From NCBI GenBank assembly GCA_945902805.1, contig CAMDMZ010000014.1, positions 1-64,000 on the forward strand: 64,000 bases of DNA, written 5' to 3'. Of the stretch, positions 2,672 to 56,378 are shown piece by piece. The notes under the pieces are model-generated. The model saw only the letters and a list, made by a program, of their open reading frames with translations. It did not search any database and had not been told where the DNA came from. A program made the translations under genes and the position numbers. Every line of letters starts with the position of its first letter. Positions within the stretch are counted from its first letter, which is position 1. The stretch is from Propionivibrio dicarboxylicus (GTDB lineage Bacteria > Pseudomonadota > Gammaproteobacteria > Burkholderiales > Rhodocyclaceae).

Positions 2672-5524
2672 TTAATCCTCAAATCCACCACCCGGCTTGA
2701 ACTTTAATTGATTGCAGTTCTCCCGTACGGCGCGCTGCACGCCATCATCAAAGCCTTTCTCGGATTCAGCCTGAATCTCCACCGTAATCTTCAAGCGGAC
2801 ATCGGGACGATTCAGCAACATGATGATCTCATCGACGACATCACCGAACTGCGGCTTCGGTTGCAAGGGATTAAGCTCCACCGTCCCAAAAAACAGAGTC
2901 TTCTTCGCGCCCTTCGCTGGTCCCGATGTGGCGCCGCCTGGTAGCGGTTCAGCGACACCAGGGGGCGGGGCACCCGTGCCCGTGGTTAGCCCGGTACCTG
3001 TTCCACCAGTCGGCGGTGCGATCGCCGCCTTGCGTGCGGCTTCCTCGGCCTGCAATACGCCGTCGAACTGATCGGCAGCCTTGGGTTCGACCAGCAGCAG
3101 TGACTCATCGAGAATCGGCGAAGTGGCCTTGCCAAAGTGAAATCCAACATAGCGAGCACCCTCTTGGCCGTAGGCAAAGCCAAAGAAGTCGCGGGAACCG
3201 GCACCGGCTCCCAACGTCTGCCGCAGAACATCCGCATCGCGCAGTCGCGGCATGTAAAGATAGGAACAACTCTTCTGCCAGATATTTAGGGCACCAACGG
3301 CGGGTGTGTCGTCCTTCCAGAACCACGTTTTGAGGAGATTGGCGAGATGGATTGGCGCCCAATCGGTAATCAGCAGTTCGTTTTCCTTCAGGATGTTTTC
3401 GATCTCCTGCATGCGGTTGAGCGCTGCCGGATTGATCGGAAAGTGTTCCCAAGAAATCTCGGAAATTCCCTTGCCAGGTTTAGCCTCCTGCATGGGCGTC
3501 AGCAGCCACTTGTAGGATTCCTTGATCATCCGTTCCAAGGCATCCTTGGCATCTTCCAGACTCTTGCTGGCTTGCTTGCCTTGGTGCATGTCGAGGTTGA
3601 GCCGGCTTTCCTTTACGTCAGAGACAATGGATTGCCATGCCAGCACGGAACGCACCTGATCCTTCAAACGACCCACGCTGTCCACATCGGCTGCCATGAA
3701 AATGAGCCGATTCTGCTTCTGCCGTGGCTGGTCGCCACGCTGTTTCAGGATCTCGGTGGCCCGCTCGATGGCCGTCCCGCTCGTGCCGGTTGAACGGGTG
3801 AATGCCGCATCCGGCGGCAGGATCACCAGCCGCAGCGACCAATCATCGGGAACATCGGCACTGGCCGTAAAAATGTGGATGCCGCCGAACACGCCTTGCG
3901 CAAAACGCAGCTTGTCGCGGATCAGTGGGAAAACATCTTCCTTGTCGTTGTAACGCCGCTTGCGCTCCTCCATCTCGCGCCGCAGGTTCGGCCGGGTGTC
4001 GAACCAATAGCGGTTGTTGGCGCTGTTCAGATATTGCAGCTTATCGACGATCGCACGGATGCCGTCCTTGTAGTGGCCGAGCACTTGGCCCGGTTGGGCA
4101 CACCCCAAAAGAAGGTGCTCCAGTTCCATGCCGCGATGATGCTTGGAGCCACCGACGGCACCCGCATCCGGCGCGCTACCGAGAAATATGGTGCGAGCCA
4201 GCCGCCGGCATACCTGCGTTGCACCAAACAACGGCTTGGTGCTGTCCAGTTCGGTGGTCGCTGCACGCTCGCCATCGATGTCGCGTTCCAACACCGGGTC
4301 CCAACCTTGCGACAGATAATTGACGGGCTCTTTCCGCGCATCAGAGTCATACAGCGGGAAACTGCCCGGCATGATCATCAAGTCGTTGTTGCCATCCTTC
4401 CATAGGCGATGGATGACTTGGGCCATCAACTTCAACACCCCGCGCGTGCGCTGAAAATTAGGCAGGGATGACCAGTCTTCATAGAGCCGGTCGAAGACCT
4501 CGGGGTGAATCGGGTAAGCATGCTTCAAGCGCTCGAAGTAATGACTGTTCTGCGTGTCGGGAGGGAAATCACCGCTGTTGGCCGTGTAGAAATCCGCATA
4601 GGCTCGACATACCTCCTCGGCCGCCAACTTGTCGTTGATGTCGGAAAACAGGCGGCGGCGCACAATCTCGAATGCCTCCTCGGTCGCCACCGGCTTCCAG
4701 AGCGCCTGCACCCGCCCGAAGTAATGAGATAGTGTTGCCAGCGCGTTGATGCCTTTTTGGCTTCCGGCTTCCCTGTCGGATTCTGGCAATGAGGCCAGCA
4801 GGACGGCAGTCGGCACCGCCTTCATGGACTCGGTGAGCGCCTGAACAAACGAGAGATTGGAATCGTAGGTGCCACCGGCAACGGCCTTCCCATCCTCGAA
4901 CTGGCGTATGTAGGCCACCAACTCGTCGATCAAGATCACACACGGGGCATGGTCAGCAATCAGTTGGGTCAGGACTTCCTTGCCGGGTGATGTGCCGGAC
5001 AGGTCGGCATCCTTGACTTGCGCATACGCAGCATCGCCGCCCAACTGCCACGCCAGCTCACCCCAAATGGTTCGGATACTGGTGCCGCCACGCTTCTGCG
5101 GCTGATTGGGGGAAAGGTTAATGCCGTCCAGCACCGCTATGCGGGCGCTTGGCAACTCGGCGACCCCGGCTGCGTCGAGAATCGGCGAGATGCCCTGCAT
5201 CTGACTGGCGGGCTGCTCGCCCTTGGCAAGGTGATACACGGCCAGCATGGTGTGCGTCTTGCCGCCGCCGAAGGCCGTCTGCAACTGTATGACAGGATCG
5301 CCACCGCGTCCTGCCAGTCGCTTGACGACTGAGTCCAGCAGCAGCCGCATACCTTCGGTAATGAAGGTGCGTTGGAAGAAGAGCGCCGGATTCTGGTATT
5401 CCTCGGTTGCCGTGCCTTCATGCACACGCGAAATGTCCGCCGCGAATTCCGCCTGCTGGAATGTGCCGCGCAGGACATCTTCGTGCGGGATGGCAATTTC
5501 ACGCCATGGTTTTAGCGCCATCAT
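2672..5524 (-). CDS. DUF499-family AAA+ ATPase, defence-associated
   Basis: This large ATPase of about 950 residues begins at one of two adjacent ATG codons (5524, 5521) behind a GGGAG. The Walker A is GGGKTHTM at about residues 86-93 and the Walker B is [11 protein letters not shown] near 196-206. The N-terminus ([18 protein letters not shown]) and the [12 protein letters not shown] context are typical of the DUF499 (COG1483) family. That family recurs beside DUF1156 methylases and SNF2 helicases in predicted defence islands. The C-terminus has a Pro/Gly/Thr-rich linker (about 830-880), then a small alpha/beta domain. The gene follows the DUF262 gene with about nine bases between stop and start. 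Its likely role is a motor or switch of the restriction machinery. The exact mechanism is not known to me. Confidence 0.9.
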
Positions 5525-5533
5525 ATCTCCCAC

Positions 5534-7234
5534 CTATTCAAAGTCCGAGCGCCACAAGTGTGCTGCGCGCATCGCCATTTGCCCTTGGCGAGCATCTAGC
5601 GCAGCTGGCGTCCATTCATCTGGCGCAGCTGCCGCAAATGTTGTCGTGAGTCCGTAGCTGCTGTTCCTATAGATCGGCAACTTCTCACTCAGAAGTGTGT
5701 TTCCGATCTGCCTATTGAGGGTTGACTCAAGCAAAGTGAGATTCCCGAGACGATAGATGAAGTCTTTTTGACGTTCTGACGGGAACGACACTCCCCAATC
5801 GGCCGAAGAATTCTCAGGCAGGATATGCTCGATCGTACCAGGATCAGCTTCATAGTCGCGACTCACTCCACTTACATCAGTGTCAAGGCGGCAGAGAATG
5901 AACTTAGCAAGTTTCTTACGCTGGCCGGTTGTGTCAATTTCCTTGACTTCAAAATCACGTATAAATTTGTCATCCGAAACATAGATGTCCCGCAATTGCC
6001 CAAAAACATCCGCCGGCGTAGTCGCCTGCTCTGACAATAGCGCCTTGGCTGCCTTGTGATAAACAGGTTCCAGTTCGTTGGTATTCAACCCACAGATCAC
6101 TGTGTAGCGGAACGAAATCACGCTTACAAGTTTAAGTACCCGAACGAAATCGGCCGGACTCAACTTTTCCCATGCCGAAAACAACAGCGGTGTCATCTGC
6201 CGAACTTTGAACAGTTGCAGCTCGCGTATATAAGGCTTGGCTTCTTTTACTTCCAACCAGTATTCGTGTTCAGCATCATTCAATGCCGCGAACAGTTCGG
6301 CACGCTTGTCCAAAGCATCCATCAGGGTAAACACATCCTGTGGCGTATGCACCTGATCTCGCACCTGTTTGAACAAACGCTGCTTGCGAATTTGTGGAAA
6401 GTCGCACAGCAAGTGATACCGAAGGAAATCCGGAAATCGCTCCTGCTTGATGATGGACATCATCGTCTTCCAACGTCGTTGTAGTGCCGACAAGTCCGCT
6501 GCCACATTGACACGAGAAAATAGGTAGTTCTTCAATAAGTCGGTAGAAGAAAGCTCTAAGCCTCGGGCATTCAGCGTCTCGAAGACCACATAAGCGCTCA
6601 ACTCATCCTCAACCGTGATCAAAATGAACAATAGCTGCCGCGCCACGGTCTCGGACAGCAGGGAAGCCAAGGTCACTCCATCGGTGGCCTTTGGGGCCAA
6701 GCGCTTCTTGAACCATTGGAAGCAATCCCACAGTAGCCGGTTTGACTTCGGCAAGCCCCGCGGATTGTTGGGTGTCCGCAACTGCACGAGGTAGTCTTGA
6801 TAAAAGGCGTCGTCGGTTTCGTTGAGGAATAACTTGCTGGTTTCTACCAGTGAGGCAGGGTCTTTTTCCCCAATAAATTTCCCACGCAAACGCAATGCTC
6901 GATCATTGTTTGCCGCCTTTTCTTCATCGGTACCGCCCAAGGCTTTCAAGGCAGCGATGATGGCAAGCGCCAAAATACTTAGGGTAGCAATTCGCTGCTG
7001 GCCGTCGATGATCAGAAATTCACGATCTGAACTGGCCTCGACCACCAAAGCACCCATGTAATGACGCTTATCGAGTGAAATAGTCAGCTCTTCAATATCG
7101 TTCCAGAGATCTTCCCACTGCTCTTCTTCCCATGAGTAGTCACGCTGAAAGGCTGGAACGCGATAGGTTTTCCCGTTGCCAATGAGATCGAGAAAAGTAG
7201 AATCTTGTGTTTTTAGGAGATTGCTTCTGCTCAT
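5534..7234 (-). CDS. DUF262/DUF1524 (GmrSD-like) protein
   Basis: This 566-residue protein has an N-terminal DUF262 domain: a YRVPAFQRDYSWEEEQW segment near residues 24-40 and FLIIDGQQRIATLSIL near 72-87. The DGQQR motif of this family binds or hydrolyses nucleotide. The C-terminal DUF1524 region has IEHILPE (about 477), the His-containing nuclease motif, followed by LGNLTLLESTLNR. GmrSD proteins of this architecture are type IV restriction enzymes that attack modified phage DNA. I chose ATG 7234 because AGGAGG lies six bases before it; the longer track start at 7249 lacks such a site. That AGGAGG covers the stop of the methyltransferase gene, so translation is probably coupled. In this operon the protein may be an effector that acts on DNA lacking or carrying a given mark. 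Confidence 0.9.
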   Translation of the reverse strand: MSRSNLLKTQDSTFLDLIGNGKTYRVPAFQRDYSWEEEQWEDLWNDIEELTISLDKRHYMGALVVEASSDREFLIIDGQQRIATLSILALAIIAALKALGGTDEEKAANNDRALRLRGKFIGEKDPASLVETSKLFLNETDDAFYQDYLVQLRTPNNPRGLPKSNRLLWDCFQWFKKRLAPKATDGVTLASLLSETVARQLLFILITVEDELSAYVVFETLNARGLELSSTDLLKNYLFSRVNVAADLSALQRRWKTMMSIIKQERFPDFLRYHLLCDFPQIRKQRLFKQVRDQVHTPQDVFTLMDALDKRAELFAALNDAEHEYWLEVKEAKPYIRELQLFKVRQMTPLLFSAWEKLSPADFVRVLKLVSVISFRYTVICGLNTNELEPVYHKAAKALLSEQATTPADVFGQLRDIYVSDDKFIRDFEVKEIDTTGQRKKLAKFILCRLDTDVSGVSRDYEADPGTIEHILPENSSADWGVSFPSERQKDFIYRLGNLTLLESTLNRQIGNTLLSEKLPIYRNSSYGLTTTFAAAAPDEWTPAALDARQGQMAMRAAHLWRSDFE

Positions 7235-7245
7235 AAATGACCTCC

Positions 7246-10140
7246 TCAAATATCCAGGTTAGATTGAGAACCGATATGGCCGACTTCATGGGAAGCAGCC
7301 TCGATTCCTATCCACGATGTAATCAACTCGTTGTAGCCGCGCGCCTCATCAGCCCACCCCTTGCGTTCGCACAAGGTATAGAGCCGATAAGCCAAGCTCC
7401 GGATTGGCTCCGCTCTCTCTGGCATGTGCGCCAGTAACTCACCGGCAGCCGCCTCGCCTTGTGCTTGCAAAGCACGGCTCATTTGATGCAACGCTTCCCA
7501 AACAGGGGTGCGGTTGTCTTCTTCCGGGTTCCAGTCGGCCGGGTATTCAGCGGGCTTTAAGAGTCGAACCTTGCCGCTACCAGCCTCTACAACCCCCGCA
7601 TCTCGGACACCTTCAACACTGGTGCCCTTAGCTCGGGCGAGAACATCCGCCATGCCAAATTCGCCGGCCATCCAACCCATTTCGTCAAACCACGCTAAAC
7701 AGAATTGGGTATCAGAATCGAAGTCATCTCCACCCTCGGTCAGCATTTTATTGATAGCCATCAGCGCCGAATGAACCGTCATCGGACTGCCATCAGCCTC
7801 GAGCACAGCCGAATACTTGGAAAATATTGCCATGCCGGGGCCGATAACTGCTTGGGCCAAGTCGACAGGAGCAACTGGCGAAACCCCCTCGGCTCCGCCG
7901 ATCATGACTTCCACGGCCTCAGCCAGTTCTTCCTTCAGTTCGCGCAGAAACTCGCGTCGAGAAATGGCTGCTGCGTCGATTGATCTCCGGCGACAAACAA
8001 GGACAATACTTGATGCCAGAGCATTGGCTCCAGATCCAACCATGCGATTGGACAACTCAGTACGCATTGGCCAAGTGCCATTAATAGCAAATCCAGCTCT
8101 TAGAACGGCCTCAAGGAAGGTTTCCCATCCAGTATTTCCGGTTCCGACATCGGTGGTATCTGATTGTTTGAAGGCATAATAAATCGTAGTTGGAAATGCT
8201 GGATGGGCTTGCTCGGCAAGCCGGTGCATTGCGTCTGTCATGCCTGCTAGAAAAAACTTCTCGGCGGCTTCAACACTGCCATGCCTATTTTGCGTTGCTA
8301 CCAACTCTTCTGATTTGGGAACTGAAATGGTTTGAAATAAGGCCGGGAAAATATTACGAACAGTGCGTCTCAACCAAACATAAAAGAAATCAGATAGATC
8401 GGCATAACATATATTGTCGTAGTATGGGGGGTCTGTGGAAATTAGCTTGTTCTTGCTAGTCAATTGCGATTGCGCGTCCGCCTGCTCCGCGTAGCCGTGA
8501 CCAGTTGGAGTTAGTCGATCAAGAACTTTGCATACCCAATTTATCGAATCAATAAAATTTGTCGCAGACTCACTAAATGGGTTTCCTTCTGCGTAATCCC
8601 ACGTCATTGGTAGCGCTTGTCGTGAAAATGCATTTCTGACGGAAGCACTTCTGGATGGCGATCCAGTAGATGACTTTGTTCCTGCTGGCCCGCTGTCCCA
8701 AGAGCAAATCGAACAATGTCGATCTGATGACCGGCTAACTGCAATTCCCAAGTAAGTAGCAACGGCATCAGCATAAACATCTGGCCCGAAAACATTAGGT
8801 AACCGACCTTCCTGCTCCTTTAACAAGTCGTTAGCCTGTGCATCACTCTTGACTAAATCACGTACCTTCTGGACCAGATCTGACAATGTATTTAAGGCCA
8901 CAAGCTGCCGTGGGGTGAATAGATCCCCAAAAGTGCTCATGCCATAGCCTGGCGGTTGGAAGTTACGATGCTTCGTTGGCATCTCCACATCGGGCCGCCA
9001 AGTAGTCGGAACGTTCTTGGCAATAGCTTCCATTTCCTCAGACGCATCAAGATAAATTCGACCTCTGTCACCCTCGGCAACAATTGCCATTAGGCGCGTT
9101 CCCATCCTCCCTGCTTTGCCCTCGGCTCGGATATAGTTGTAGTCAATTGGCGTACCTGATAGTAAGCAAATGAACCCTTTCCTCTTTCCTGCTGAAGTCC
9201 CATCCTTTGCTTCAACAGGAGGAGTCCCGTGCTTCACGACAAAGTGATAACCATCCTTCGAAATAACTGGCTTGATATAAGCCTGAGTTCCCTCTTTGTT
9301 TGATAACACAAATGAGGACGCGAGAGGAACTTCGACATTAGAAAAAGCAGGGTTAGGACTTTTGACTGTGCGAGCCCACAGCCATGCAATCACAGTAGCT
9401 TTCCCCCCACCAAGATCCTTAGGCAAATCAACTAGTGGATACAAATGCCCGATACTCTTAAAAGCTTCCTCTCTCATCCATGCGCCGTAGCGTCGAATGT
9501 CCTCAGCTAAACCTTTTGCTCCCGACCAGTCCTGCACCATTTTTGTCTGCTTTTCATTTGCAGGTATGGGACCAATGGGTACATGACTGGCAAACAAAGG
9601 CGGGATTTCGATCATCGCCTTATTAATAAGAACCGCCACTGGATTTAGGTCTGAAGCATGACTTTCAAGCCCTAGTCGTTGCGCCTCGAGCGGAATCGCT
9701 CCTCCACCCGCAAATGGGTCGTGGAAAGCAGGTAGTTTGTCCGGGTTAAAAAGCTCAGAAGCCTGCGGATGATTGCGATTCAGATCGCAGGTCTCACGCC
9801 AACTCTTCCAAATTTCCGCGCGCGCTTCCGACAGCACGGCTTCATTATTAGTGTTCTCCCATAGCACCAGCCTGCGAATGATCCGAAAGAGCCTATCTCT
9901 CTCCAACTGAGCTTGGGCCTTTGTCATTCCTGGTCCATATCCTCGATGTCCGCCTGGATCATTAACCATCTGCGCAAATATCACCGCTCTTGCAGCAGCA
10001 AGCGGCCTACGAGCCCACCAAATATGAAGAGTTGATGGATGCCCATGACGGATAGACTTTTCCTTAATGCAGGCAATATTGATGTCGTCCAGCGGCAGGG
10101 CAACTTCAATTAGCTTCTTGGGGGTCTTAATTGGCTGCAT
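7246..10140 (-). CDS. DUF1156 DNA methyltransferase (COG1743-like)
   Basis: This is a 964-residue adenine-type DNA methyltransferase. The start of the protein ([15 protein letters not shown], then [18 protein letters not shown]) is characteristic of DUF1156. The SAM-binding motif [17 protein letters not shown] is at about 141-157 and the catalytic DPPYYDN is at about 569-575, followed by [14 protein letters not shown]. The ATG at 10140 fits the family start; the track frame extends 36 codons further without homology. Only a weak GGAA precedes it. It probably marks host DNA so that the helicase, ATPase and nuclease genes around it spare the host. The middle of the gene (about 8.3-9.5 kb) looks more AT-rich than its neighbours, which suggests mosaic ancestry. 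Confidence 0.93.
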
Positions 10141-10153
10141 TGTGCTATTCCGT

Positions 10154-10818
10154 TTATGTTGCCTTGACGGCCTTTGTTCGTTTCGGAGTGGATGAGCGAA
10201 GTGATTCCGCTTCATTAGACAAGATCTCGTTGTGGATAAGATTCTCAACGATGTCGATCACAAGATTCACATTGTCGATGCTTGGTCTATAACCTCGATG
10301 TGCGGATGCATGCCCTACATCAACGGCAGCCTCAATGATTTCGCGGTTTCGCTGACTGATAAGCTGCGTGTCAACGAGATGTTGAAGACCTTTGCCAAAA
10401 TTGCCTTGGTCACCAATAGTGCTCCTGATTATCTCGTCGATTAGCGCGCGCACCCCCATCATCGCCAGCCTACGACTATCCGCATGGAGTGCGATGTAGA
10501 TTTCCTCCAGAAGACCCTTGTATTCCGTTGGAACTTCTAACCGGCCAGCCCAATCCGGCTTCCTTCGGGACACTCGCGGAGGGAAATAAGTGCCGCAGTC
10601 GGGAGCGTCCATAGGATCGTCTTCGGAGCACCAGTCCCGCCGATGTAAGGAAACCTCATCGCAGCCTTTGCAACGCAATGTCTTCCAGACAGATCCGACC
10701 TCGATCGTGTTTTGCCCATCTTGAAACTCTCGGCGTCGATCCACTCGACTCATGATTTCATGCTTTGTCTCTTGGGCACATGAGTTGCAATGCGCGTAAA
10801 TGAATTTTGGCGCCTCGG

Positions 10819-10822
<4 letters not shown>
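10154..10822 (-). CDS. DUF4145-like protein with zinc knuckles
   Basis: This 222-residue protein has cysteine pairs near the N-terminus (HCNSC and RCKGC, about residues 13-50), which suggest a zinc ribbon. A helical C-terminal half follows ([25 protein letters not shown]) that matches DUF4145. DUF4145 domains occur alone and fused to restriction endonucleases or defence ATPases, and their biochemical role is not settled. The ATG at 10822 overlaps the helicase TGA in an ATGA, so it is translated by coupling to the helicase. The longer track start at 10897 lies inside the helicase gene. Its likely role is an accessory or sensing subunit; that is inference. Confidence 0.8.
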
Positions 10823-14346
<3,524 letters not shown>

Positions 14347-14380
14347 CTTTGTCTTGTTTTTCTTTTTTGCGAACCTCCGG

Positions 14381-14409
14381 ATTATCGCCCTAGCGGTGAA
14401 AACTAACCA
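14381..14409 (-). promoter_or_regulatory. candidate promoter of the defence operon
   Basis: On the minus strand GATAAT (14381-14386) lies 34 bases before the helicase ATG, with a weak TGGTTA at a 17-base spacing upstream. The -10 is good and the -35 is poor, which would fit a promoter needing an activator. Confidence 0.3.
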
Positions 14410-14957
14410 GCGCGAACATGACAAATGATGCCATCCTCGCTGACCATGCCCGTAACTGAAATGCCGCCGTTGTAAGCGTTCCAAGCGACGAACGTGGGCC
14501 ACGCTGCACTTCGGACCTCCCTGGCGACACCGCAGGAACCTTATCGAAATCGCAAACGACGATACCTCCGGGGGGTGGGTCTTCGGGCTTTGAGTTCCCC
14601 GGGATTCCTGACGAACATAGAATGATTTTCGTCAGAGGAATCAGCCTAAAACCCTTGCCAATCCTGGCGGTTTCAAACTCTCTATATGAATGTCGCCGTT
14701 GCCACCTTTTGTTCGCGCAATTGAAACCGGTGGTTTTCGATGCGAAAGCGACCAAGATTTGTCATCGGGCGTCATCGCACCGCTGTACGAGCAACTTAAA
14801 AAACACACATAAAATCAATGCGGTAGTTGCGGGAAGCTGCGGTAAGATGTCATTTACCGCGCTTTTATTTCGCAACCCATTGAAACCATTGAGTATTATT
14901 TGTGTGTGGTAATGCGGTAAAGAAAAACAATAAGACTCCTGTGCACGCATGCCCGCC

Positions 14958-14991
14958 CGTGCGTACGCGCACACGTGTACACGTGCACATG
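14958..14991. other. 34-bp alternating purine/pyrimidine tract
   Basis: Every base from 14958 to 14991 alternates pyrimidine and purine, mostly CG, GT, AC and TA steps. The part at 14972-14985 (CACGTGTACACGTG) is a perfect 14-bp palindrome. Such tracts can flip to Z-DNA or form a cruciform under negative supercoiling. It sits inside the TGCGGTAA cluster. Confidence 0.85.
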
Positions 14992-15091
14992 AAGCTTTAA
15001 TCAAAAAAAACGTTACCGCACGACCGCAAGTCGCACGACATTCAATAACCACTTGTTTATTAACATATTTTCCTATCAGTAAGAATGGCTT

Positions 15092-15115
15092 TGCGGTAAA
15101 TCTGCTTTTACCGCA
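15092..15115. repeat. perfect 9-bp inverted repeat, 6-nt loop
   Basis: TGCGGTAAA and TTTACCGCA flank the loop TCTGCT. This is the strongest dyad in the cluster and could be a dimer-binding operator or a hairpin. Confidence 0.8.
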
Positions 15116-15367
15116 GCATGTATCGCTGCTTACCGCAGCAATTTCCAGCATTCCGCCAGACGCCTCTGGAATCGCTTTTGAATGCCGTCAGGTACCCCAT
15201 GACCAATGACCCGACGAAACTCGATCAGAAGCGCCAAAAACGGCAATTTTGATAGTGGTACCGCGAGGAGATGGGGTCGGGGGTTCTCCAGAGTTGCCGG
15301 AATGGCTTGGGAACCCCAATGTAAAGCGGATGAGCCAAACCAAATGGCTCTTCCATTCCCAATAGCC

Positions 15368-16937: not shown

Positions 16938-18434
16938 ATGTCAGGGACCCTAGTGGCGCCAGCCTCATATGTCACGATCCCGCTCGCAGCAGCTATAACT
17001 GGTTTGAGCGAAAAGGCGATCCGCCGAAAGATCGAGGATGGCAAATGGATCGAAGGGCGAGAGTTTCGGCGCTCTCCTGACGGTGGGATTTTTATCAGCG
17101 TAAAAAGGATTTATCAAATGGGTCGAAGCGGCAGCGGCGTAGATGTGCGCGAAAGCAGCATCAGGATCAAATTTGTCCTGAATGGGGAAACCATCCGCGA
17201 GCGCCTAACAATAAACGGTAAATCTCTCGATCCAACACCTGCCAATCGAAAGTACGCTGAACGCATGGCAGCAGAGATCAAGCGCCGTATCGAGTTAGGT
17301 AATTTCAGTTTTGCTGAATTCTTTCCTGATTCGGCCAGAGCCAGAACCGAGAAGGATGAAGCCACAACGTTCGGGAAGTTGGCCGACCTATGGCTGGAAT
17401 CCTGCGGTCGTCTAGCCGAAGCATCACGCAGTCAGTACGCGTCCGCCGTCAGGTTGTGGAAAGGTCTGCTCGGTGAGGACACTTTAATTCGTGACATCAC
17501 ACACAAAACGCTAGCATCCAAAATTGGTGCTCACAAATGGTCATCAGAAAAGAAACACAATAACTATTTGATTGCACTGCGCGGCATTTTCAAACTTGAA
17601 TATCCTGGTCCCGCCACCGTTCATAACCCCATGAATGGCATCAAGGACATGAAAGTAGTGAAAACCCTGCCAGATCCACTGTCGACCTCAGAGCGGGATG
17701 CAATTTTGGGCGATATGAAGACTCAATACGACGAACGGGTGCATGCCTACTTCCAATGGATGTTCTACACAGGCATGCGCCCCGAGGAAGCCATTGCCCT
17801 ACGTTGGTCCGACATCGATTGGAATCGCATGACGGTGCGAATCCAGCGGGTAAGAACATTCAAGGGGACAGAGCGGGATGGATCAAAAACCCATTCCGAA
17901 CGGGAAGTGGATCTGTTACCCCAAGCAGTCGATGCACTTTTGACAATGAAGCCCTACACCTACATGTTGAAGATCGAGCGCGAGGACGATAGCGATTCAG
18001 CAGCAGATATTTTTCAAAATCCAGTCACCGGGCGTGCATGGCATGACGAACGCTCGCAGCGGGACACCTTCTGGCGCCCTTCGCTAAAGCGACTGGAAAT
18101 CCGCTGGCGCACTGCTTATAACACACGGCATACCTTTGCCACGGTTGCCCTGATGGCCGCCGTCGCCCCCGCTTATATTGCTAACCAACTTGGTCACTCG
18201 GTGAAGATGCTCCTCGAGAAGTACGCGCGCTGGCTTTCGGAAAACGATGATGGATCGGCCCGTGCCAAGTTGGCTGCGGCCATGGCAGTTTCCAAACCGG
18301 AAACCGCGAATTCGTCCCAAATTCGTCCCAAAAAACGAATGGGGCAGCCTAAGTTGCTGCCCCATAAGGATAATTTTGGTAGGCGGTATTGGAATCGAAC
18401 CAACGACCTCCACGATGTCAACGTGGCGCTCTAA
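16938..18434 (+). CDS. tyrosine recombinase with excisionase-like N-terminus
   Basis: This 498-residue protein counts from the ATG at 16938; the track uses a TTG at 16893. Residues about 9-60 (YVTIPLAAAITGLSEKAIRR, then DGGIFISVKRIYQ) look like a small excisionase/AlpA-type DNA-binding protein. From about 62 on it resembles an arm-binding domain (SSIRIKFVLNGETIRERL). The catalytic domain has Arg in TGMRPEEAIALRW, then TRHTFAT, QLGHS and Tyr in LLEKYARW. The usual first His of the HxxR box is replaced, giving YNTR, as in related integrases. An internal ATG at 17118, with AAGGA eight bases before it, could start a shorter integrase-only product. The last residues are encoded by the antisense of tRNA-Val. 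It probably mediates integration and excision of the island at that tRNA. Confidence 0.92.
   Translation: MSGTLVAPASYVTIPLAAAITGLSEKAIRRKIEDGKWIEGREFRRSPDGGIFISVKRIYQMGRSGSGVDVRESSIRIKFVLNGETIRERLTINGKSLDPTPANRKYAERMAAEIKRRIELGNFSFAEFFPDSARARTEKDEATTFGKLADLWLESCGRLAEASRSQYASAVRLWKGLLGEDTLIRDITHKTLASKIGAHKWSSEKKHNNYLIALRGIFKLEYPGPATVHNPMNGIKDMKVVKTLPDPLSTSERDAILGDMKTQYDERVHAYFQWMFYTGMRPEEAIALRWSDIDWNRMTVRIQRVRTFKGTERDGSKTHSEREVDLLPQAVDALLTMKPYTYMLKIEREDDSDSAADIFQNPVTGRAWHDERSQRDTFWRPSLKRLEIRWRTAYNTRHTFATVALMAAVAPAYIANQLGHSVKMLLEKYARWLSENDDGSARAKLAAAMAVSKPETANSSQIRPKKRMGQPKLLPHKDNFGRRYWNRTNDLHDVNVAL
18331..18364 (-). terminator. intrinsic terminator of tRNA-Val
   Basis: On the minus strand GGGGCAGC, a 7-base loop and GCTGCCCC form an 8-bp GC-rich stem, followed after four bases by six T. 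It starts 13 bases after the CCA end of the tRNA. It lies within the 3' end of the integrase reading frame. Confidence 0.75.
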
Positions 18435-18453
18435 CCAGCTGAGCTAACCGCCT
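18377..18453 (-). tRNA. tRNA-Val (anticodon GAC)
   Basis: The 77-base gene folds into a full cloverleaf: acceptor AGGCGGT/ACCGCCT, D-stem GCTC/GAGC, anticodon stem CCACG/CGTGG with loop TTGACAT, T-arm GTTGG/CCAAT, discriminator A and encoded CCA. The anticodon GAC reads the Val codon GUC. Its 3' half is the likely attachment site of the island, because the integrase gene runs into it from the left. Confidence 0.95.
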
Positions 18454-54881: not shown

Positions 54882-56378
54882 TCAGGCCGCCTTGCGCCGC
54901 TTGGCAGCACGTCGCGCCGTGGCGATGGGTGTCACGTTCTTCGTACCGGCGGCAGCGAGGTATTCCTGGAAGCTGTCGCGCACGCACTGGGCGAAGACTT
55001 CTGGGTCGGGCAGTTGCTCGTAGCAGCCGGTGAACGAGATGACCAGCATTTCGTCGTAACTGGTGACGGAAAACACCAGTCCCATGCCGTCGGCAATCGG
55101 CATAATGGCGGAAAAGTAGGCCAGCCGCGCGCCGCGTAGATAGAGCGGCACGCTTGGCCCAGGTACGTTGGTGATGCTGCAGTTGGCGAGCGGCGCCCAG
55201 CGGCCCATTTGCGCTGTCGCGTAACCGAGCATGCGGCTGGTCACGGCCACCGTGGCACCCGGCGCGTAGCGCGCGATGTCGGTCAGCTCGCGAGCGCTCA
55301 CTGCATCGTTGATAACGGTCGAGGCCGCTGTCTGGGCGCGGATCGCGGTCAGGCGTGCCACCGGGTCGGCGATGTCGGTACCAAGCCGGACCCGGAGCAG
55401 CGTGAAGTCCTGCTTGCCCTTGCCACGGATACCGATCGGCGCGGTGGCGGTGAGACTACCCTCGGGTAGTTCGCCCTGCAGATCGAGGTAACGCCGCAAC
55501 CCACCGCCACACACGGCCAACACAACGTCGTTGACCGTGGCGTCGGGCACCAGGCTGCGGATGGTCTTGCACTCATCGAGGCGGAAACGCCGGGTTTCGA
55601 ACACCCGATGCGGCGAGACGACGGTGTTGAAGCGGGTGATGACGGCTTGTTCCGGATGTTTGACGGCTTCGCGAAGACGCTCAAAGACGGCAGGGACGAC
55701 GCTGGACACGGTACGCGCTAGAGCCGGGATGCGGCGCAGTGGAAAGAGCAGGGTGCGCAGAGCGGCACGCGCCAGCAGCACTGTGTCGCCGGGCGGCGCC
55801 TCGGGGAACCAGGGTTCGGGTACGTCCGGTGCCGGCGGTACCTGATCGATGTCATGCAACAGCGCGGTGATTTCATTGCCGCGCTCGACATCGATGACGG
55901 CGTGATGGATCTTGAACAGCACGGCAAAGCTGCTGGCGGGCAGGTCGAGGAAGGCATCCAGCCCTTCGATGACATACATTTCCCACAGTGGCCGATGGCG
56001 GTCCAGCGGCCGGGCGTGAATGCGTGAGGCCTGGATGCAGAATTGGCGCCAGTCGCCGGGCTTGGGCAGAGCGATGTGGCGGACGTGGTATTCGAGGTTG
56101 AAATCCTCATCATCGACCCAGTAGGGACGGTCCAGCCCGAGTGGGACGCGGCAAAGCTTCTGGCGTAGCAGGGGCAGTCGATCGAGACGGTTTTCGATAT
56201 GCTTGAGAATGCTCTTGAAGCGGACCACGCCACCCGGTGCGGTAGATTGGTCGTAGATGTGCAACAGGGTGATGTTGGCGTTGGCGTGGGTGTTGTCGGA
56301 ATAAAGAAACACCGCATCCTGTTGGCTGAGCTGGCTGAGCTGGCTGAGCTGGCTGAGTTTGCGCGCTTCGTCGCTCAT
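54882..56378 (-). CDS. wax ester synthase/diacylglycerol acyltransferase (WS/DGAT)
   Basis: This 498-residue enzyme belongs to the bifunctional WS/DGAT family that makes wax esters or triacylglycerol. The active-site HHAVIDVE motif lies near residue 150, slightly different from the usual HHAVVDG. The C-terminal NVPGPSVPLYLRGARL matches the conserved second block. The N-terminus contains four SQL units from a 9-bp tandem repeat. It overlaps the hydrolase gene upstream by ATGA. The Asp-to-Val-Glu change after the HHxxxD may weaken activity. Confidence 0.88.
   Translation of the reverse strand: MSDEARKLSQLSQLSQLSQQDAVFLYSDNTHANANITLLHIYDQSTAPGGVVRFKSILKHIENRLDRLPLLRQKLCRVPLGLDRPYWVDDEDFNLEYHVRHIALPKPGDWRQFCIQASRIHARPLDRHRPLWEMYVIEGLDAFLDLPASSFAVLFKIHHAVIDVERGNEITALLHDIDQVPPAPDVPEPWFPEAPPGDTVLLARAALRTLLFPLRRIPALARTVSSVVPAVFERLREAVKHPEQAVITRFNTVVSPHRVFETRRFRLDECKTIRSLVPDATVNDVVLAVCGGGLRRYLDLQGELPEGSLTATAPIGIRGKGKQDFTLLRVRLGTDIADPVARLTAIRAQTAASTVINDAVSARELTDIARYAPGATVAVTSRMLGYATAQMGRWAPLANCSITNVPGPSVPLYLRGARLAYFSAIMPIADGMGLVFSVTSYDEMLVISFTGCYEQLPDPEVFAQCVRDSFQEYLAAAGTKNVTPIATARRAAKRRKAA
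56322..56357 (-). repeat. 9-bp tandem repeat, four units, inside WS/DGAT gene
   Basis: Four units of CTGGCTGAG (first unit with T) encode SQLSQLSQLSQ at the N-terminus. The unit is a multiple of three, so copy-number changes keep frame. Confidence 0.9.

Follow-up and report, generated by a model that had tools for sequence, protein, structure and literature searches.

An array of the octamer TGCGGTAA at positions 14819–15137 of the window, as we call the whole stretch of 64,000 bases that was analysed, is on balance probably an iteron-type replication origin (oriV). It would belong to a family of integrative elements with at least two array-bearing members in this genome. Six exact words and four words with one mismatch lie in both orientations within ~320 bases; the sequence-only reading had counted the six exact words correctly but had listed two near matches, which are actually four. 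Its two dyads, one of them a perfect 9-bp inverted repeat, could both be located. The perfect repeat at 15092–15115 consists of TGCGGTAAA and TTTACCGCA separated by a loop of 6 bases, while the second dyad (14838–14861) is formed by the exact plus-strand word and the minus-strand CGCGGTAA at the right end of the left word cluster. The words and the other parts of the conserved module are as follows.

14785–15282, conserved module present here and on C55, a further contig of the genome, with 84% identity across ~510 bases
14838 (+), 14913 (+), 15013 (−), 15092 (+), 15108 (−) and 15130 (−), exact TGCGGTAA words
14819 (+), 14828 (+), 14854 (−) and 14905 (+), words with one mismatch
14819–14861, left word cluster: TGCGGTAG (+), TGCGGGAA (+), TGCGGTAA (+) at 14838–14845 and CGCGGTAA (−) at 14854–14861
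14905–14920, plus strand, tandem TGTGGTAA and TGCGGTAA within a 42-base stretch identical in the window and C55 copies
14936–14992, GC-rich tract of alternating purines and pyrimidines that separates word clusters and alternates more than any other 57-mer region in the window
15013–15027, minus strand, TGCGGTAA and a partial word (TGCGGT)
15030–15090, moderately AT-rich spacer, the fastest-changing part between the copies (~61% identity) and a candidate unwinding region
15092–15137, right word cluster, with words at 15092 (+), 15108 (−) and 15130 (−)
15181–15259, 79-base stretch to the right of the array, without any difference between the copies

The exact word TGCGGTAA occurs 165 times in the genome (4,864,220 bases in 129 contigs), so that only ~0.01 copies are expected per 300 bases. 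This genome-wide count, which the sequence-only reading had proposed as a check, confirms the clustering, and in a scan of all 8-mers the array was the strongest 8-mer cluster of the 64-kb window. Counted over all 64 kb of the window, exact and one-mismatch words together are at chance level (42 observed vs 41 expected), and the signal of the array therefore lies in local clustering. As in iteron-type origins, a short word is present in multiple copies within a few hundred bases, and words in both orientations are placed around a spacer. The stretch had also been described as gene-free, which was borne out: no conserved reading frame was found between hmaA and the HU gene, and an ORF of 129 aa on the minus strand, overlying the array, is not preserved in the C55 copy.

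A search for DnaA boxes with at most one mismatch found none, and none that was convincing. The array region folds better than shuffled sequences in an RNA structure test (z −3.6), but this was not counted as a sign of an RNA, since the inverted words alone could account for the fold; Rfam and tRNA scans returned tRNAs only. One or another string of the TGCGGTAA octamer occurs in 793 papers, and the titles of those listed looked unrelated. Elsewhere in the window, CTCAGCCA is found four times within 35 bases (56323–56357).

The array on C55 matches that of the window in word order, orientation and spacing. Between the two copies 78 of 80 word bases are identical (97.5%, 2 differing), compared with 87% of the aligned bases outside the words (53 of 410 differing). 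The array, its second copy and this preferential conservation of the words can be read directly from the sequence. The word at 14828 is TGCGGGAA in the window and TGCGGTAA in C55. In the alternating tract all five changes between the copies are transitions, vs 25 of 50 elsewhere. The spacers are ~60–68% AT in the window copy and lower in AT in C55. At 15035–15085 the identity between the copies drops to 61%, with the adjoining words preserved. The 79-base stretch holds a 17-codon reading frame (MTNDPTKLDQKRQKRQF) and is better conserved than the array itself. Another segment of ~150 bases, 73% identical in both elements, is differently placed, lying to the left of the array in the window (14450–14601) and beside HU in C55 (L012:11678–11844).

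C55 carries, in order, a Cch/SaPI-Rep-like primase-helicase, an AbiE pair, the array, a Nudix and a tRNA-editing gene, and an HU gene that is truncated by the contig end. To the left of each array lies a defence operon that reads leftward, Hma in the window and AbiE in C55. Since C55 has AbiE on the left and the same HU on the right, the array goes with the backbone of the element rather than with Hma. Inside this genome, the suggestion to look for the array beside homologous islands was thus rewarded by the second element. Beyond it, no homologs of the module turned up in samples of 100 relatives and of 399 order-level and 399 family-level genomes (partly overlapping, amounting to ~900 related-genome comparisons), or in plasmids and phages; weak matches were short and due to chance.

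The genes and presumed ends of the island in the window are:

2672–14502, minus strand, Hma defence cargo (HmaA, DUF4145, HmaB, GmrSD, HmaC)
2672–5533, minus strand, HmaC
5534–7249, minus strand, GmrSD-type restriction gene between HmaB and HmaC
7246–10248, minus strand, HmaB
10154–10897, minus strand, DUF4145 protein between HmaA and HmaB
10819–14502, minus strand, HmaA
15368–15703, minus strand, HU-family DNA-binding protein to the right of the array, with 94% identical DNA on C55
15700–15939, minus strand, RsaL-like HTH protein of 79 aa, with close copies on contigs C47 and C115
16893–18434, plus strand, tyrosine integrase (Arm-DNA-bind_2 and Phage_integrase)
18309–18330, plus strand, tandem pair of AATTCGTCCCA at the window att end, presumed to be arm sites of the integrase
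18375–18453, minus strand, tRNA-Val(GAC), into which the 3′ end of the integrase gene runs
18375–18403, presumed att core, the 3′ end of tRNA-Val, repeated on contig C29 (1509–1537)
L184:1402–1424, two tandem AATTCGTCCCA beside the att copy on C29

We place the start of hmaA at ~14346, since the match to the HmaA profile does not set in until residue 53 of the longest ORF. The repeat on C29 consists of the last 29 bases of tRNA-Val without the remainder of the tRNA. Tandem AATTCGTCCCA pairs are located on the island side at both presumed att ends, ~45–110 bases from the core. The simplest reading is that the tRNA 3′-end repeats and the AATTCGTCCCA pairs mark the two ends of one island with its own arm sites. 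The interior between C29 and C14 is unassembled, and the gene content is visible for the assembled part only.

The C55 protein encoded upstream of the array has 931 aa with a DUF3854 (TOPRIM-like) domain, a DUF927 helicase and a C-terminal HTH_56 winged helix. It matches the SCCmec Cch1 model (1e-12) with 47 bits, where the equivalog cut-off is 700, and is related to the solved structures 8tch (a pathogenicity island protein) and 5dgk (an active helicase); the match to 5dgk spans the helicase and the C-terminal part. No other DUF927 gene was found in the genome, and no initiator of that kind can be seen in what is assembled of the window island. Scans of genome contigs and viral contigs revealed no close relatives of the C55 helicase. 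C55 also encodes a MobA/MobL relaxase and a Lon-like ATPase. The TGCGGTAA array lies downstream of the helicase gene at a distance of 2.2 kb, with the AbiE genes in between. C55 has a second array as well, with 11 copies of GATGACA in both orientations (L012:2154–2452), which adjoins a 414-aa protein with a C-terminal HTH (L012:2419–3663). This array is stronger than the TGCGGTAA array, and its word more closely resembles those commonly linked to DUF927 genes, which often have ACA at the end. The Cch-like helicase of C55 may in fact use this array as its origin.

Helicases of the DUF927 kind are initiators of SaPI elements and proposed initiators of SCCmec, whose Cch contains DUF927 (PMC7581432). 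We compared the regions around 32 other DUF927-type genes (from class-level relatives, plasmids and one phage-collection record) with 43 control regions, scanning for words of 7–9 bases clustered in both orientations. Such two-orientation arrays were found at 19 of the 32 loci vs none of the 43 controls, with a threshold of −9 that was set after the values were seen (best control −8.4). At 11 of these 19 loci, 3–175 bases separate the helicase stop codon from the start of the array. Four of the remaining arrays start within 1.1 kb after the stop (the distance being unsure for L152, which has a broken frame), another two share bases with the 3′ end of the helicase frame, and the last two are upstream. 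At L146 another predicted gene lies between helicase and array, and an intervening gene thus has precedent. The words are specific to each locus (GGTGACA, GGTAGTAAC, ACCGGAACA, GTTGGTTCA and others), and many of them end in ACA (loci L063–L075, L146–L152 and L174–L180). The staphylococcal element PT1028, one of the 11 loci with an array 3–175 bases past the stop and a positive control, has its array at 7110–7394 behind a helicase gene that ends at 7107. On the same uncorrected scale, the TGCGGTAA array scores ~−14 vs ~−20 to −32 for many DUF927-linked arrays. The general association between arrays and DUF927 genes, observed here at the sequence level, is a useful generalization of the published SaPI and SCCmec cases. 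If it is true, searching for a two-orientation word array behind a DUF927 helicase gene could serve as a rule for finding the origins of uncharacterized integrative elements.

If the TGCGGTAA array is an origin, the element would excise, and the two-orientation word clusters would serve as loading sites for an initiator recognizing TGCGGTAA. The DNA between the clusters would then melt, possibly with the help of HU, and replication would start. Candidates for the initiator are the Cch/SaPI-Rep-like protein of C55 and a relative whose gene would lie where the window island is unassembled. We infer these mechanical steps, the binding of the C55 helicase to the TGCGGTAA array and the firing of the array. 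The origin reading is weakened by the position of the array, which is not directly behind the C55 helicase, and by the modest AT content of the spacer (~60%). The GATGACA array, the lack of a visible DUF927-type initiator in the assembled window island, the negative search for DnaA boxes, the comparatively low score of the array and the lack of a BLASTP alignment between the C55 protein and the prophage helicase described below also count against it. An origin would place the Hma and GmrSD defence island in an element family able to replicate extrachromosomally. That the defence island has an origin but no initiator of its own, and relies in trans on the Cch-like protein of C55 for its replication, seems unlikely to us; if so, it would hitchhike when the C55 element excises, raising its own copy number or transfer.

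Several known systems resemble the array in part. SaPI origins consist of short repeats directly downstream of the rep helicase gene (PMC7581432). The TGCGGTAA array shares with the PT1028/SaPIbov1 type the short words in both orientations, their clusters around a spacer, the integrating element and the DUF927-kind Rep. Unlike in SaPIs, the word is a different one, the nearest DUF927 gene is 2.2 kb off (on C55), and the assembled part of the window island has none. SCCmec is brought in by the matches of the C55 protein to the Cch1 model and 5dgk, but the Cch1 score is far under 700, and the binding site demonstrated for Cch2 is a 23-bp direct-repeat region (PMC7581432). The oriV of the SGI1 island, which includes repeats and AT-rich parts, likewise follows a rep gene (PMC7433901), but it differs in its 17-bp iterons, RepA_C-type initiator and DnaA box.

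A very similar word was found in two prophage contigs (IMGVR_UViG_2522572175 and 2648501565). These carry an independent TGTGCGGT(AA) array with 9–10 TGCGGT-containing words (TGTGCGGT) around an AT-rich stretch (L022:9776–9993 and L023:5684–5890), and a primase-type gene of phrog_1139. The near-identical word, the same TGCGGTAAA-TTTACCGCA dyad, the clusters around an AT-rich stretch (modestly so in the window) and the primase/helicase-type gene are all shared with the TGCGGTAA array, but there is no alignable sequence, and the prophage helicase lies 3.3 kb off and gives no BLASTP alignment with the C55 protein. The prophage array is a probable phage origin. Other matches to the dyad pattern in viral contigs and GTDB genome contigs were mostly single chance dyads, and a match in Brumimicrobium was a different, longer repeat.

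The words could instead be operators for a DNA-binding protein, e.g., the RsaL-like HTH protein or HU, that controls the leftward cargo operons. Both copies have leftward defence genes on the left and HU on the right, and words in both orientations with dyads would suit a dimeric repressor. We nevertheless find this rather unlikely, as the nearest word is ~470 bases from hmaA and ~350 bases from AbiEi with entirely different intervening sequence, no sigma-70-like promoter was found when looked for in the region, and ten words over 320 bases are a large operator. The RsaL-like HTH family is also common (168 of 399 genomes of the order), whereas the array is not. An operator of the Hma operon in particular, as the sequence-only reading had considered, is weakened by the C55 array, which has AbiE and not Hma on its left, and by the different repeated segment that separates the array from hmaA. 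Quite unlikely is an oriT, in which the words would bind a relaxosome accessory protein and 15181–15259 would hold the nick site of a MobQ/MobL relaxase. C55 does encode a MobA/MobL relaxase, and conservation within the module is highest in the 79-base block, but inspection by eye did not recognize a MOBQ nick sequence, the relaxase gene is ~12 kb away on C55, and the number and spread of the words fit origins better.

The window array might also be a functionless remnant of an origin that decays while the island carries it, given that the assembled island shows no initiator gene and that the word at 14828 is degenerate in the window and exact in C55. The conservation of the words beyond their surroundings makes this very unlikely. 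Clustered words in both orientations would be compatible with a centromere-like site that serves partition or incompatibility once the element is excised, a highly improbable alternative, as no ParA/ParB pair was recognized among the genes examined near either copy. The tyrosine integrase with its arm-binding domain is encoded only 1.8 kb away, but it is scarcely credible that the words are arm-type sites at which the integrase or an excisionase of the island binds: the TGCGGTAA array is ~3.2 kb from the att core, and it is the AATTCGTCCCA pairs, not TGCGGTAA, that flank both presumed ends as arm-type sites would. The binding array for a transposase that had been suggested is, as far as the integrase is concerned, unlikely for the same reason. 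Thus, among the three functions proposed by the sequence-only reading, the iteron-type origin is favoured, the operator is weakened and the transposase/relaxase array is unlikely as far as the integrase is concerned, with a small probability left for a relaxase (oriT) role.

Two further contigs may be related to the proposed family of elements. C115 encodes a 34%-identical relative of the HTH protein at L012:2419–3663 near a further array, CGGTCACG. The flanking fragments shared by C55 and C115 point tentatively to a common order of rep module, array, HU and HTH, tentatively because both contigs end in repeats. On C47 (L056), an HU fragment and an RsaL-like HTH gene lie beside a run of conjugation-type genes. 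Judged from the translations alone, this run includes a lytic transglycosylase and Tra-like proteins, which suggests that C47 holds a conjugative member of the family.
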